NCBI RefSeq assembly: GCF_019112525.1
Contig: NZ_CP077800.1
Span: forward strand, 1,674,001-1,738,000
From: Modestobacter sp. L9-4
GTDB taxonomy: Bacteria > Actinomycetota > Actinomycetes > Mycobacteriales > Geodermatophilaceae
Length of the DNA: 64,000 bases
Direction of reading: 5' to 3'
A program made the translations under genes and the position numbers. A model generated the notes under the pieces. The model saw only the letters and a program-made list of their open reading frames with translations. It had not been told where the DNA came from and did no database searches. Below, one piece after another: positions 18,778 to 29,653 of this stretch. The first letter of the stretch is position 1. Each line of letters starts with the position of its first letter.

Positions 18778-19344
18778 TCATCCGTGGCGCGACTCGTCGG
18801 CCAGCAGCTGGGCGACGTCGGCCAGGCCCTCGCGGTAGCGACGGGCCAGCTCGCCGGCGACGGCGTCCATGACGGTCTGCACGCCCCGGCGGCGCTCGGA
18901 CAGCGACCGCTCACCGGCGGCCAGCGACCGGGCCGTCTGCTCGAGCCGGTCGTCGGGCATCGACGGGACGTCGGTGAGGTCGGCACCGGGCGCCAGGCTG
19001 TTGACCCAGGTCTCGAACTGCTCGGGCGAGGTGGGCTGCACGGTCTGGTGCCGGCCCAGGCCGTGGGCGGGGCCGCGGCCCTTCTCGGACAGGATCTCCG
19101 GCAGCAGGTCGACCAGCGACCGCCCGTCGTGCTCGGCGCGGCGCTGCAGCTCGCGGCGCACGATGTCGAGCCGGCCCTGCAGCAGCCGCCGCGTGTAGGA
19201 GAGGTTGACCTCCTCCTGCTCGGCGCGGTGCCGTAGCGCGCGCACCTCGGCCATCGGCACGTCCTGGACGCCGTCGAGGAACGAGGGGTCCAGCAGCTCG
19301 TCGACGCCGGTGCCGCCGGCAGCGGCAGGGGTGGGAGCAGTCAT
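18778..19344 (-). CDS. rsiG: RsiG-family c-di-GMP-binding anti-sigma factor
   Basis: 188 residues. The protein contains two perfect copies of the RsiG c-di-GMP-binding pattern E-x3-S-x2-R-x3-Q-x3-D: Glu45, Ser49, Arg52, Gln56, Asp60 and Glu145, Ser149, Arg152, Gln156, Asp160. In Streptomyces RsiG these lie on the two helices of an antiparallel coiled coil that binds a c-di-GMP dimer and holds the sigma factor WhiG. The spacing of exactly 100 residues fits a helical hairpin with a long linker. The sigma partner is not in the window. ATG 19344 has a GGAGG site upstream. ygfZ lies 58 bases upstream on the same strand. Confidence 0.9.
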   Translation of the reverse strand: MTAPTPAAAGGTGVDELLDPSFLDGVQDVPMAEVRALRHRAEQEEVNLSYTRRLLQGRLDIVRRELQRRAEHDGRSLVDLLPEILSEKGRGPAHGLGRHQTVQPTSPEQFETWVNSLAPGADLTDVPSMPDDRLEQTARSLAAGERSLSERRRGVQTVMDAVAGELARRYREGLADVAQLLADESRHG

Positions 19345-24426: not shown

Positions 24427-26130
24427 TCACAGCTGGGCGAGCTCGGCGGCCAGGTCGTCGAGGCCGAGGCTGCCCTGCGACAGGGCGGCCATGTGCCAGG
24501 CCTTGAGGTCGAAGTCCGCGCCGCGGGCCGCCTGCGCGGCGGTGCGGCCCTCGAGCCAGGCCCGCTCCCCCAGCTTGTAGCTGATCGCCTGACCGGGCAT
24601 GCCCAGGTAGCGCACCAGCTCGCTGTCGAGGAAATCGGCGTCCCGGCCGCAGTTCTCCCCGAAGAAGGCACGGGCCAGCTCCGGCGTCCACGGCTTCCCG
24701 CGGTGCTCGGCGACGGCGCCCTCGGCGTCGTCGGGGATCGGCAGCTCGAGGTGCATCCCGATGTCGACGACCACGCGGACGGCGCGCATCTGCTGCGCGT
24801 CGAGGTAGCCCAGCCGGGCACCGGGGTCGGCCAGGAAGCCCAGCTCGTCCATCAGCCGCTCGGCGTAGAGCGCCCAGCCCTCGAGGTTGGCGCTGACCCC
24901 GCCCAGGGTGGTCTGGTAGTTCGACAGGTCACCGGCGACGTGCACCCACTGCGCGAGCTGCAGGTGGTGGCCCGGGACGCCCTCGTGGTACCAGGTCGAG
25001 ACCAGGTCCCACAGCGGGAAGCGCTCCTTGCCCAGCGTGGGCAGCCAGGTGCGGCCGGGCCGGGAGAAGTCCAGCGACGGGCGCGTGTAGTACGGCGCGG
25101 CGGCGCTGCCGGGCGGGGCGATCATCGACTCGACCCGCCGCAGCGGCCCGGCGATGTCGAAGTGGACGCCGTCCAGGGCCTCGATCGCGGTGTCCATCAT
25201 CGCCTGCAGCCGCTCGCGGATCTGCTCCACGCCGTCCACGGCCTCGCCGTGCTCGCCGAGCCAGCGCATGGCCTCCATCGGGGCCGCGCCGGGCAGGACC
25301 CGCTCGGCCTCCTTGCGCTGCTCGACCAGGATCCGCTGGTGCTCGGCCCAGCCCCAGGCGTAGGCGTCCTCGAGGCCGGTGCCGCTGCCGAGGTCCGAGC
25401 CGTTCCACGAGCGGGCGAACCGGGCGTAGCGCTCCCGGCCGACCGCGTCGGGCGTGCCCTCGCACTGCGCGGCGTAGGTGTCGCGGAGGAAGTCCCGGAC
25501 GGCGGCGACCGCGGCGTCCGCGGCGGCGGCGGAGGCGTCCAGGTCGGCGCGCAGCTCCGCCGGGCCGTCGGCGACGAACGTGCCGAAGTAGGGGCCCTCG
25601 AGCCAGGCGTCCAGCTGACCGATCACGGTGTGCACCTGGCGCGGGGCCGCGAACAGCCCGCGCTCGGCGCCGGCGGTCAGCGACTCCTGGTAGCCGCGGT
25701 AGGCGGCGGGGACCCGGACCAGCCGACGGGCGACCACGGCCCAGTCCTCGGGGGTGGCGGTCGGCATCATCGAGAACACCGAGCGGATCGACTGCACCGG
25801 GGAGAACAGGTTGGACACCGCGCGCAGGCCCTCGCCCGCCTCGTGCAGCGCCAGGGCGGCGGTGAGCCGCTCGCGCAGCAGCCGGGCGCACCGACGCTCG
25901 ATCGGGTCGTCGGCCAGGGACGGGTCAGCGGCCAGCACCCGGTCCAGCTCGGCCAGCGTCGAGCGCATCAGCTCGGCCTCGGCCTCCTGCCCGGCCGGGG
26001 TGGTGTCGGGCAGCCGGTCGTCGCCGGGGCGGGTGCCCAGCTGGGTCGCCACGATCGGGTCGAGGTCGCAGACGGCCTCGACGTGGGCGTCCGCGACCTG
26101 GCGGGGCGTGGTGGGGACAACGGTGGTCAT
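24427..26130 (-). CDS. DUF885-family metallopeptidase-like protein
   Basis: 567 residues of the DUF885 family. TWYHEGVPGHHLQLAQ is the conserved zinc-binding-like H-E-x-x-P-G-H-H motif, and YYTRPSLDFSRPGRTWLP, WALYAERLMDELG and VVVDIGMHLE are other family blocks. These proteins resemble M32/M2-type peptidases, but their substrates are unknown. There is no signal peptide, so it is cytoplasmic. ATG 26130 overlaps the nitrobindin stop as ATGA. It is the last gene of a three-gene operon. Confidence 0.88.
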   Translation of the reverse strand: MTTVVPTTPRQVADAHVEAVCDLDPIVATQLGTRPGDDRLPDTTPAGQEAEAELMRSTLAELDRVLAADPSLADDPIERRCARLLRERLTAALALHEAGEGLRAVSNLFSPVQSIRSVFSMMPTATPEDWAVVARRLVRVPAAYRGYQESLTAGAERGLFAAPRQVHTVIGQLDAWLEGPYFGTFVADGPAELRADLDASAAAADAAVAAVRDFLRDTYAAQCEGTPDAVGRERYARFARSWNGSDLGSGTGLEDAYAWGWAEHQRILVEQRKEAERVLPGAAPMEAMRWLGEHGEAVDGVEQIRERLQAMMDTAIEALDGVHFDIAGPLRRVESMIAPPGSAAAPYYTRPSLDFSRPGRTWLPTLGKERFPLWDLVSTWYHEGVPGHHLQLAQWVHVAGDLSNYQTTLGGVSANLEGWALYAERLMDELGFLADPGARLGYLDAQQMRAVRVVVDIGMHLELPIPDDAEGAVAEHRGKPWTPELARAFFGENCGRDADFLDSELVRYLGMPGQAISYKLGERAWLEGRTAAQAARGADFDLKAWHMAALSQGSLGLDDLAAELAQL

Positions 26131-26699
26131 CGGATCCGTTCCAGTCGGGCGGACATGGTGGGGCGCAGCGGCTGGTCGCCGGCCGCGCGGTCGACGGCGT
26201 ACATGAGCGCGCCGTCGACGATGCCGTAGAGGCGGGTGGCCCGGTTGACGTCGGGGTGGTCGGGGGTGCGGGCCAGCACGTCGCTGGTCAGCTCCCAGCT
26301 GGTCGTCGTCCGGGCGGTGCCCACGTAGATCTCCACGAGGCCGGCCGGGGAGCTCACCAGCAGCTCCACCTCGTCGTCCCCGCGCGGACGCCAGAAGCCG
26401 GACTCGCGGGTGTCGGGGCCGGCGACCTGGCCGTCCTCGGTCAGCCGCCAGGTGCGCGACTCGTAGGAGAGGAAGTCGCGGCCGTCGTGGGCGAAGCGCA
26501 CCCACTGGCCGAAGCGGTGGTCACCACCGGCGCCCGCGGCCTGGCCCTCGCCGTGCCACTCACCCAGCAGCGGCAGCACCGACAGCAGCTCGTGTGCGAC
26601 CTCGGGGCCGGTGCGGACGTCGACGGTGTCGGGCACCGGCAGCTCGGTCGGGCCGGCGGCCGGGCCGTCGGGCAGGCCGGGCGGGACGGGGGCGCTCAT
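26127..26699 (-). CDS. Nitrobindin-like haem-binding beta-barrel (FABP-like/DUF1794)
   Basis: 190 residues. LLGEWHGEGQ is the G-x-W-x-G-x-G signature of the nitrobindin fold, and YGIVDGALMYAVD and a C-terminal MSARLERI fit the last strands. Nitrobindins bind ferric haem through a C-terminal His and react with NO or peroxynitrite. I do not see an obvious His near the C-terminus, so haem binding is uncertain. It overlaps the small membrane-protein gene before it and the DUF885 gene after it, both by ATGA. Confidence 0.82.
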   Translation of the reverse strand: MSAPVPPGLPDGPAAGPTELPVPDTVDVRTGPEVAHELLSVLPLLGEWHGEGQAAGAGGDHRFGQWVRFAHDGRDFLSYESRTWRLTEDGQVAGPDTRESGFWRPRGDDEVELLVSSPAGLVEIYVGTARTTTSWELTSDVLARTPDHPDVNRATRLYGIVDGALMYAVDRAAGDQPLRPTMSARLERIR

Positions 26700-26824: not shown

Positions 26825-26970
26825 ATCCGAGCCCCCGGTACACGCCGGAGGCGGTCGGTCTCACCCCAGCGGGGTGCCCGGCTCAAGGACGTCGCGTCCT
26901 CCGCCGACGTCACGGGGGTGGGACGGCTGTCGAACCGACGGGGGCTGCCACCGACAGATGAGGTGACCAG

Positions 26971-27816
26971 GTGTCGATCGACGCCGGAGCACGACCTGCC
27001 CAGCTCACCCGTGGGCCGGTGGCGACCAAGCTGAACGTGACCGCGACCGGCCCCGAGGACGGCCCCGTGCTGCTCCTCGCCCACGGCTTCGGCTGCGACC
27101 AGGGCATGTGGGACGGCGTCGTGCCGTACTTCTCCGGCGACCACCGCGTCGTGCGCTACGACCTGATGGGCTACGGGCAGTCGGACTTCGCCGCCTACGA
27201 CCCGGCCCACTACGCCAGCCTGGACGGGCACGCCGCCGACATCCTGGCCATCTGCGCGGAGCTCGACCTGCACGACGTGACGCTCGTGGCGCACAGCGTG
27301 AGCACGATGATGTCGGTCAAGGCCGCCATCGCCGAGCCCGGGCGCTTCCGGCAGCTGGTGCTGGTCGCCGCCAACCCCTACTTCATGCAGGACTCCACGG
27401 ACGGGTACGACGGCGGGTTCTCCGACGACGACATGACCGAGGTGGCCGGCGCGCTCGACAGCAACTACTTCACCTGGGCCGAGGCGATGGCCCCGGTCAT
27501 CATGGGCACCCCGGAGAGCCCCGAGCACGGCGAGCTGCTGACCGCGAGCTTCTGCCGGGTCAACCCCGACGTCGCCCGCCAGCTGCTGGGCATCATGTTC
27601 ACCACCGACTACCGCCCGCTGCTGCCGCAGGTGACCACCCCGACGGTGGTCATGCAGTGCCGGGCCGACGCCATGGTGCCGCCGCACGTCGCCGGCTACC
27701 TGCACGAGAACCTGGCCGGCTCGACCCTGGTGCAGCTGCAGGCGCTGGGGCACTGCCCGCACATCAGCGCACCGGAGGAGACCGCGGCGGCGATCCGTAC
27801 CCACCTGCTGCCATGA
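26971..27816 (+). CDS. RsbQ/KAI2-type alpha/beta hydrolase
   Basis: 281 residues. LLAHGFGCDQGMWDGVVPYF and VAHSVSTMMSV (nucleophile Ser in HSVS) and GHCPHISAPEET (catalytic His) are the diagnostic blocks of the RsbQ/karrikin-receptor group rather than of general esterases. In Bacillus, RsbQ is needed for the PAS-domain phosphatase RsbP to sense energy stress. Here the stop overlaps the start of a PAS-GGDEF-EAL gene by ATGA, so the PAS protein is the natural partner. An AGGTGA ribosome site precedes GTG 26971. Confidence 0.88.
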   Translation: MSIDAGARPAQLTRGPVATKLNVTATGPEDGPVLLLAHGFGCDQGMWDGVVPYFSGDHRVVRYDLMGYGQSDFAAYDPAHYASLDGHAADILAICAELDLHDVTLVAHSVSTMMSVKAAIAEPGRFRQLVLVAANPYFMQDSTDGYDGGFSDDDMTEVAGALDSNYFTWAEAMAPVIMGTPESPEHGELLTASFCRVNPDVARQLLGIMFTTDYRPLLPQVTTPTVVMQCRADAMVPPHVAGYLHENLAGSTLVQLQALGHCPHISAPEETAAAIRTHLLP

Positions 27817-29570
27817 CCCCGGACTACGCGGACCTGTGGGAGCACGCCCCCGGCAGCCACCTGCTGCTGGACGACGACGGTCTCATCACCGCCGCCAACG
27901 CCACGTTCTGCGAGTGGACCGGCCACGTGGCCACCGACCTGCTGGGCCGGCCGTTCACCGGTCTGCTGCCCATCGGCGACCGGGTCCTGCACACCACGCA
28001 CGCCCTGCCGCAGCTGATGGTGACCGGCCGGATCGCCGAGGCCTCCGTGCAGGTCATCGGCGCCGACGGGCAGCGGCACCCCGCGCTGCTGAGCGCGACG
28101 CGGGTGACCGACGGGCTGCCGGCCCCGGAGACCCGGGTCGTGCTGATCGACGCCCAGCAGCGCCGCCGCTACGAGGAGGAGCTGCTCACCGCCCGCCGGC
28201 GCGCCGAGGAGTCGCAGGCCCGGATCGCCGCGGCCGAGGCGGCGCTGACCGAGCTGGTGCACCACGACTCGCTCACCGGGCTGCTCAACCGCCCCGGTCT
28301 GCTGCACGCCCTGCACGGCCGGCTCGCCCGCTGCGGCGCCGACGAGACCGGTCCCGGCACGGCCGTGCCGACCGTGTTCTTCATCGACCTCGACGGGTTC
28401 AAGGCCGTCAACGACGGGCTCGGGCACAGCAGCGGCGACGAGCTGCTCCGCGTCATCGCCCGCCGCCTCGAGGATGCCTCCCGCGCCGGCGCCGACGTGG
28501 CCCGGCTGGCCGGGGACGAGTTCGTCGTCCTGGACGACGTCTCCCCCGCCGGCACCCGCCGCGTCGCCGCCCGGCTGCAGGACGTGCTCTCCGAGCCGGT
28601 CGTGCTGCAGGGCGTCGAGGTCGTCGTGGCCGCCAGCATCGGCAGCTGCGCGGCCGAGCTGCCCATCGCCCCCGCCGACGTCCCCACCGCCGCCGACCTG
28701 GTGCTCCGCCGGGCCGACACGGCCATGTACCGGGCCAAGAGCCAGGGCCGGGGCCGCTGGGAGGCCCACGTCCCCGGCAGCGCCGACCCGGCCGCCGACC
28801 GGCTGGTGCTGCTGGAGCACCTGCGCAGCGCGATCCGCGACGGGGAGCTGCGCCTGCACTACCAGCCCCGCATGCACCTGCCCACCGGCGCGATCAGCGG
28901 CGTGGAGGCGCTGGTCCGCTGGCAGCACCCCACCCGCGGGCTGCTGCAGCCGATGGACTTCATCGACGCGGCCGAGGAGTCCGGGGTGATCCGCGAGCTG
29001 GGCGCCTGGGTGCTCACCGAGGCCGTAGCGCAGGCCGTGCGCTGGGACGCGACCGGCGTCGCACCGGGCCTGCAGATGGCGGTCAACGTCTCCGCCCGCC
29101 AGCTCGCCGACGGCGACCTGGTCGCCCGGGTGTCCGGCGTGCTGGCCCGGGCCGGCCTGCCGGCGTCCCGGCTGGTCCTGGAGATCACCGAGACCGCGCT
29201 GATGAACGACCCCGAGTCGGCGCTGCGCACGCTGCAGCAGCTGCGGTCGCTGGGCGTGCTGCTGGCCGTCGACGACTTCGGCACCGGGTACTCCAGCTTC
29301 ACCTACCTCAAGCAGTTCCCGGTGGACGAGCTGAAGATCGACCGCTCCTTCGTCGCCGGGATGACCACCGACGACGGGGACCGGGCCATCGTGGCCAGCT
29401 GCGTGCACCTGGCCCACGCCATGGGGTTGGTCGCCGTCGCGGAGGGCGTCGAGTCCGCGGACGAGCGGGACGCGCTGACCGCGCTGGGCTGCGACCAGGC
29501 GCAGGGCTACTTCTTCAGCCGGCCCGTGCCGGCTGCGGCCGTGCCGTTCCCGGTCGCCGTCCCCGCCTGA
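27813..29570 (+). CDS. PAS-GGDEF-EAL c-di-GMP enzyme
   Basis: 585 residues. PAS domain ~8-118 (HLLLDDDGLITAANATFCEW), coiled coil ~120-150, GGDEF domain ~150-310 with active-site RLAGDEF (first Gly replaced by Ala, usually tolerated), and EAL domain ~325-570. The EAL residues are all present: EALVRW, NVSARQ, EITETALM, DDFGTGYSS, KIDRSFV, AEGVES and QGYFFSRP. It could therefore both make and break c-di-GMP. Translation is coupled to the RsbQ-like hydrolase gene. There is no membrane segment. A strong terminator follows. Confidence 0.93.
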   Translation: MTPDYADLWEHAPGSHLLLDDDGLITAANATFCEWTGHVATDLLGRPFTGLLPIGDRVLHTTHALPQLMVTGRIAEASVQVIGADGQRHPALLSATRVTDGLPAPETRVVLIDAQQRRRYEEELLTARRRAEESQARIAAAEAALTELVHHDSLTGLLNRPGLLHALHGRLARCGADETGPGTAVPTVFFIDLDGFKAVNDGLGHSSGDELLRVIARRLEDASRAGADVARLAGDEFVVLDDVSPAGTRRVAARLQDVLSEPVVLQGVEVVVAASIGSCAAELPIAPADVPTAADLVLRRADTAMYRAKSQGRGRWEAHVPGSADPAADRLVLLEHLRSAIRDGELRLHYQPRMHLPTGAISGVEALVRWQHPTRGLLQPMDFIDAAEESGVIRELGAWVLTEAVAQAVRWDATGVAPGLQMAVNVSARQLADGDLVARVSGVLARAGLPASRLVLEITETALMNDPESALRTLQQLRSLGVLLAVDDFGTGYSSFTYLKQFPVDELKIDRSFVAGMTTDDGDRAIVASCVHLAHAMGLVAVAEGVESADERDALTALGCDQAQGYFFSRPVPAAAVPFPVAVPA

Positions 29571-29605: not shown

Positions 29606-29653
29606 GACGCGACAGGGCCCGCCTCCCCGAGGGGAGACGGGCCCTGTCGCGTC
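29606..29653. terminator. Very strong bidirectional terminator
   Basis: Perfect 16-bp arms (29606-29621 and 29638-29653) enclose an inner CTCCCC/GGGGAG stem, giving an almost fully paired 48-base hairpin between the c-di-GMP enzyme gene and the convergent sseC gene. Confidence 0.85.

Follow-up and report, generated by a model that had tools for sequence, protein, structure and literature searches.

A probable RsbQ–PAS bipartite sensor with a predicted c-di-GMP-turnover output in Modestobacter sp. L9-4

The closest described systems are the RsbQ–PAS pairs of Nadezhdin et al. (2011; PMC3183031), who report 45 of them and name phosphatases, kinases and cyclases as the outputs. An EAL domain is also present in three of these cyclases, and the kinase outputs are placed in Gram-negative bacteria. 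The same source offers two models for RsbQ, a product-making hydrolase and a ligand receptor, and calls the signal mysterious (PMC3183031). In the PAS domain of B. subtilis RsbP, residues L48, F55, Y59, E72 (null) and P86 (weak) are important; with the F55A mutation, signalling was lost and RsbQ bound less well (Nadezhdin et al., 2011, PMC3183031). In an AlphaFold2 model of two RsbP and two RsbQ chains, RsbQ sits between the PAS domains and linkers (PMC12143880). The plant receptors KAI2 and D14 are related hydrolases, the partners of which are F-box and SMXL proteins, not PAS domains; in what is described of KAI2, its ligand is likewise unknown. Among open-licence PMC papers, RsbQ–PAS with a cyclase output was found in Nadezhdin et al. 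(2011) and in PMC12143880, which cites it, and PMC10950880 names RsbQ and c-di-GMP in unrelated places. The RsbQ–PAS module, GGDEF-EAL output included, is already published.

The locus described here lies in a window of 64,000 nucleotides from the genome of Modestobacter sp. L9-4 and consists of an RsbQ gene and a gene for a PAS-GGDEF-EAL protein (PGE). Its features are as follows.

26960–26966, plus strand: GAGGTGA, read off the sequence 5' of the RsbQ GTG start
26971–27816, plus strand: RsbQ-type α/β hydrolase, 281 aa, GTG start codon; match to 1wom, Abhydrolase_1/6 (Pfam), Ser109/Asp233/His261
27813–27816, plus strand: four-base ATGA start/stop overlap of the RsbQ and PGE genes
27813–29570, plus strand: PAS-GGDEF-EAL protein, 585 aa, ATG start (Pfam, AlphaFold2)
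27825–28151, plus strand: RsbP-type PAS domain, aa 5–113 (PF00989 above cut-off, AlphaFold2, class residues)
27972–28025, plus strand: Fα helix, aa 54–71, with Leu59 and His63 aligned to F55 and Y59 of B. subtilis RsbP (AlphaFold2, alignment)
28152–28262, plus strand: continuous helix, aa 114–150, from PAS to GGDEF (AlphaFold2)
28260–28754, plus strand: GGDEF domain with the motif AGDEF and without an RxxD inhibitory site (Pfam, alignment)
28818–29525, plus strand: EAL domain with the expected metal and catalytic residues (Pfam, alignment)
29606–29653, no strand: inverted repeat past the pair, 23-nt arms; possible bidirectional terminator without a T-run

The GAGGTGA element is presumably Shine-Dalgarno-like, and the ATGA overlap makes translational coupling of the two genes likely. 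Scans for promoters and T-tailed terminators, the latter by consensus, found none.

The closest solved structure to the hydrolase is B. subtilis RsbQ (1wom, E 4.5e-63, residues 33–278), followed by the Oleispira protein 3qvm and then by plant KAI2/D14 proteins (E 1e-39 to 1e-53). The catalytic triad S109, D233 and H261 aligns with B. subtilis S98, D221 and H249, and the three columns are S, D and H in all 97 RsbQ rows of the alignment. Between members of the genus, RsbQ identity is 75–85%, which is faster change than in the rhodanese (82–96%), DUF885 (86–95%) and heme-barrel (87–96%) genes of the same loci, but not faster than in the thioredoxin-like (63–87%) or LmeA-like (59–75%) genes.

Pfam finds in PGE a PAS domain at residues 7–101 (PF00989, 25.2 bits; cut-off 22.6), a GGDEF domain at 150–314 (105.5 bits) and an EAL domain at 336–571 (250 bits). 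The single-chain AlphaFold2 model, built with 20 sequences, has a PAS-like N-terminal domain, an unbroken helix at 114–150, GGDEF and EAL (mean pLDDT 86.5); the relative placement of the domains is unsure because pTM is 0.52. As in the RsbP-PAS class defined by Nadezhdin et al. (2011), the PAS is the most N-terminal domain with the RsbQ gene immediately upstream, and in the model the helix 114–150 leads to the output domain. A DIT motif is absent from the end of the PAS domain, which reads ...VVLIDAQQRRRYEEEL. These data bear out the observation of the earlier note, an RsbQ-like hydrolase coupled to a PAS-GGDEF-EAL protein; its statement that RsbQ–PAS pairs with other outputs are known agrees with the phosphatase, kinase and cyclase pairs of PMC3183031.

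The layout of RsbQ upstream, an N-terminal RsbP-type PAS and then a helix is shared with B. subtilis RsbQ–RsbP, whereas the output there is a PPM phosphatase and here GGDEF-EAL, with L and G at the positions of F55 and C10. The published cyclase and cyclase-phosphodiesterase pairs, as presented in PMC3183031, have the same module and the same kind of output. In the GGDEF-EAL case of Psychromonas (A1SX34), a heterologous second PAS domain intervenes (PMC3183031), whereas in the window protein a single helix leads straight from the RsbP-type PAS to the GGDEF domain.

Active EAL phosphodiesterases have the signature E-N-E-DD-K-E-Q. It is complete in the window protein (E365, N425, E457, D487, D488, K508, E544 and Q564); in the alignment of 20 PGE proteins, K508 and Q564 are each found in 19 and the other six residues in all. 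The GGDEF metal residues D192 and N200 are likewise present in all 20 and D209 in 19, and GDEF is invariant behind a first motif residue that is A in 9 and S in 11. An RxxD I-site was sought in the GGDEF domains of the same 20 proteins and found in none. The output would most likely be a phosphodiesterase under regulation, in which the GGDEF domain is weak or has a regulatory role.

RsbQ is widespread in the Geodermatophilaceae, with a match at E 1e-30 or better in 93 of the 112 genomes searched. Twenty regions were fetched out of roughly 103 RsbQ matches. Ten contain the window subtype of RsbQ (56–85% identity), with a PGE gene next to it in every case; the other ten contain another RsbQ type, always followed by a PAS-phosphatase gene. 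PGE thus adjoins RsbQ in 11/11 family loci of the subtype, window included. The loci L005–L033, seen in short flanks only and in part coinciding with the 20 fetched regions, comprise nine with PAS-GGDEF-EAL and 20 with a phosphatase-type PAS with GAF. In a wider survey, the second gene starts at −3 from the RsbQ stop in 17 of 21 pairs with a GGDEF partner.

The pair has a common chromosomal site in eight of 23 surveyed genomes of the genus, window included. The gene order is Fur, Na+/H+ antiporter, DUF885, THAP4-like heme-binding barrel, the pair, DUF1416, rhodanese and thioredoxin-like. The divergent neighbour of RsbQ in the window is

26130–26696: THAP4-like heme-binding β-barrel gene (PF08768)

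and this gene is conserved there whether or not the pair is present. The window RsbQ subtype was not found in 15 of the 23 genomes, five of them only 67–80% complete, so the subtype is dispensable. In nine genomes without the subtype (G085, G086, G087, G089, G092, G093, G101, G102 and G103; G094–G098 are excluded, as is G104, with its flanks on separate contigs), other genes or little DNA lie between the heme-barrel and DUF1416/rhodanese genes, and no RsbQ remnant was detected there at E 1e-3. A PGE query matches a different EAL protein (33–35%) in G085 and G093. Pairs at other chromosomal places occur in G066 and G016. Three RsbQ–PAS pairs occur in one genus member, G088 (locus L042, G088:C1:3753341-3754129): besides the PGE pair at the syntenic site it has another PGE pair, closest to a Blastococcus one, and the phosphatase pair.

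The wider survey took the best 80 of 460 relatives ranked by the window query, so its class counts are not population frequencies: 20 PGE, 28 PPM phosphatase, 10 kinase and 1 truncated GGDEF partner, and 21 loci without a partner, one of which (L110) is a contig end. All ten kinase partners carry HisKA and HATPase (Pfam). In a tree of 97 RsbQ rows, 26 PGE-linked, 20 orphan and 9 Arthrobacter histidine-kinase-linked sequences form one clade (SH-aLRT 100), and all 39 phosphatase-linked rows fall outside it; the tree comes from a short search without bootstraps and has long branches, and six loci that were fetched twice entered it once. Consistently, 25 PGE and the 9 kinase sequences group together in the PAS tree at 97, matching the set of the RsbQ tree. 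L077 is a PGE row in the RsbQ tree and is in neither the PAS set nor alignment A2; L104, whose frame is truncated, was used for the tree and the PAS set but not for A2. RsbQ and PAS distances correlate with r 0.84 over 73 pairs (0.96 for PGE; none of 2000 permutations as high), a correlation that could also be expected from linked inheritance of two genes alone. The conserved linkage and the matched RsbQ and PAS clades support a module with a predicted c-di-GMP output that is conserved as a unit; lack of conserved linkage, which the earlier note had named as grounds against its proposal, is not what was found. The record of L077 bears the title Vibrio cholerae strain 35D, yet its RsbQ falls among those of Arthrobacter; the assembly is probably mislabelled or mixed. 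The partner gene at L077 is frame-broken.

The PAS contact helix differs between output classes. B. subtilis RsbP positions were mapped from the published numbering by an ungapped offset of 4. At L48, F55, Y59, E72 and P86 the window PAS has L52, L59, H63, E76 and P90, three of them identical, and the C10 equivalent is G. H63 in place of Y59 would fit the H/Y class described in print, provided that this position is the one meant. The residue aligned with F55 is L in 25/25 PGE, Y or F in 38/38 PPM, V in 9/9 Arthrobacter kinases, and F in the one deltaproteobacterial kinase. The class residues at other positions vary more, with E at the E72 position in 21/38 PPM, P at P86 in 12/25 PGE and C at C10 in 15/25 PGE. 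Nine of 135 PAS columns separate PGE from PPM perfectly, four of them within helix 54–71 (P 0.019), and 6 of 14 near-separating columns lie there too (P 0.004); both P values treat columns as independent, and the separation rests on essentially one split. The pattern in the helix points to partner specificity. Because F55A is null in B. subtilis and the window protein has L at that position and G at C10, the RsbQ–PAS contact may differ here. No report of the class residue at the F55 position was found in open-licence PMC papers; the alignments of Nadezhdin et al. (2011) may show part of it.

The same 4.22 Mb genome contains a second RsbQ pair at about 919.6–922.7 kb (G000:C1), in which the RsbQ gene is followed by, and overlaps by GTGA, the gene for a PAS-GAF-GAF-SpoIIE phosphatase of 762 aa. 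The two-gene layout and the module are those of the window pair; the output is a phosphatase rather than GGDEF-EAL. Identity between the two pairs is 46% for RsbQ and 39% for PAS. Searched against its own genome, the window PAS matches itself, the PAS of the second pair (E 3.6e-21) and one weak hit (E 4.9e-4).

Within the clade of the window RsbQ, twenty Micrococcaceae RsbQs lack an RsbP-type PAS gene in the roughly 4 kb that follow (L075, L076, L078–L080, L082–L085, L088–L093, L095, L099, L102, L106 and L109, with little upstream sequence at L092, L095 and L106). Their catalytic triads are intact. No RsbP-type PAS match at E 1e-8 was obtained in five tested orphan-only genomes of unstated completeness, and in each of four tested genomes that combine an orphan RsbQ with a PGE pair there is exactly one such match. 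RsbQ may therefore act without PAS in some lineages. The neighbours of six of the 20 orphans, listed by eye, include no shared partner. At nine Arthrobacter loci (L097, L116, L118–L122, L124 and L126), RsbQ is followed by a PAS-containing histidine kinase. Open-licence PMC papers yielded no report of RsbQ-linked histidine kinases in Arthrobacter, nor of RsbQs in genomes without a detectable RsbP-type PAS.

The existence of RsbQ lineages without a detectable PAS partner, together with the non-aromatic residue at the F55 position, would suit a different reading of the locus, that the hydrolase serves in biosynthesis or detoxification and PGE is an operon neighbour with a signal of its own, the two forming no physical module. 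This is unlikely given the invariant linkage in the family subtype (11/11), the agreement of RsbQ and PAS clades, the occurrence of RsbP-type PAS domains in this genome only beside RsbQ, and the RsbQ–PAS contact published for B. subtilis (PMC3183031). The GGDEF-EAL part might instead be a degenerate c-di-GMP receptor or scaffold and not an enzyme, as the A or S that opens the GGDEF motif and the missing I-site in all 20 proteins would allow. Retention of the GGDEF metal residues and of the EAL residues in 19 or 20 of the 20 makes this very unlikely, and the AGDEF cyclase VCA0965 is described as active (PMC3974145).

The earlier note also proposed that RsiG, encoded 8 kb away, could read the resulting c-di-GMP changes. 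The gene is there:

18778–19344, minus strand: RsiG, twin-motif c-di-GMP-dependent anti-sigma factor, judged a bystander (Pfam RsiG E 4.5e-27, two stretches)

It carries two E(x3)S(x2)R(x3)Q(x3)D motifs, but the inference from nearness is not supported. Twin-motif RsiG is listed for 16/16 Geodermatophilaceae species in PMC8325347, and RsiG was present in all 18 other family genomes tested. In nine of ten tested genus genomes without the RsbQ subtype it lies 7.0–7.8 kb from the heme-barrel gene, and in the tenth (G085) the two lie on different contigs. Among nine tested Micrococcaceae genomes with a pair (completeness unstated, G121 from a MAG), none has an RsiG match; Kineococcus, with a pair, has RsiG as well. 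The nearness is thus bystander synteny, and on synteny and co-occurrence RsiG was no longer considered a dedicated reader of the pair. A local circuit from hydrolase product through c-di-GMP to release of WhiG/FliA by RsiG can draw on the presence of RsiG, on the single FliA/WhiG-type sigma factor above cut-off in the genome and on the Streptomyces GGDEF-EAL phosphodiesterase RmdB, described in PMC13232838 as an antagonist of RsiG. It is nonetheless highly improbable: RmdB, with eight transmembrane helices, a GGDEF and an EAL domain in that description, is unlike the window PGE, and with 35 GGDEF matches in the genome RsiG would see a shared c-di-GMP pool. Through that pool the pair could still reach RsiG.

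The two genes therefore remain best read, with good though not full confidence from comparative sequence evidence, as an RsbQ–PAS bipartite sensor with a c-di-GMP-turnover output, likely phosphodiesterase control. RsbQ would bind, and possibly hydrolyse, a small molecule and would dock on the Fα helix of the PAS domain, perhaps on the linker too. The signal would run down helix 114–150 in a dimer and shift GGDEF/EAL activity; most likely a phosphodiesterase would be controlled, and the GGDEF domain would have a regulatory role or weak cyclase activity. Insulation from the second RsbQ-PAS-GAF-GAF-phosphatase pair may come from the separate RsbQ lineage of the module and from the residues of its contact helix. 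More tentatively, and somewhat short of an even chance, an old separate actinobacterial RsbQ lineage may be dedicated to c-di-GMP and held apart from the stress-phosphatase lineage of the same cell by a PAS contact helix of its own, with Leu instead of Tyr/Phe at the contact position; in Micrococcaceae, part of this lineage may later have lost its PAS partner.

A predicted-soluble two-gene RsbQ system with a c-di-GMP read-out and a sister pair in the same genome would make ligand search and partner specificity directly testable. If the separate lineage is real, the Micrococcaceae RsbQs without a PAS partner would work by another route, and one KAI2/D14-like hydrolase family would feed two insulated pathways, possibly with two ligands.
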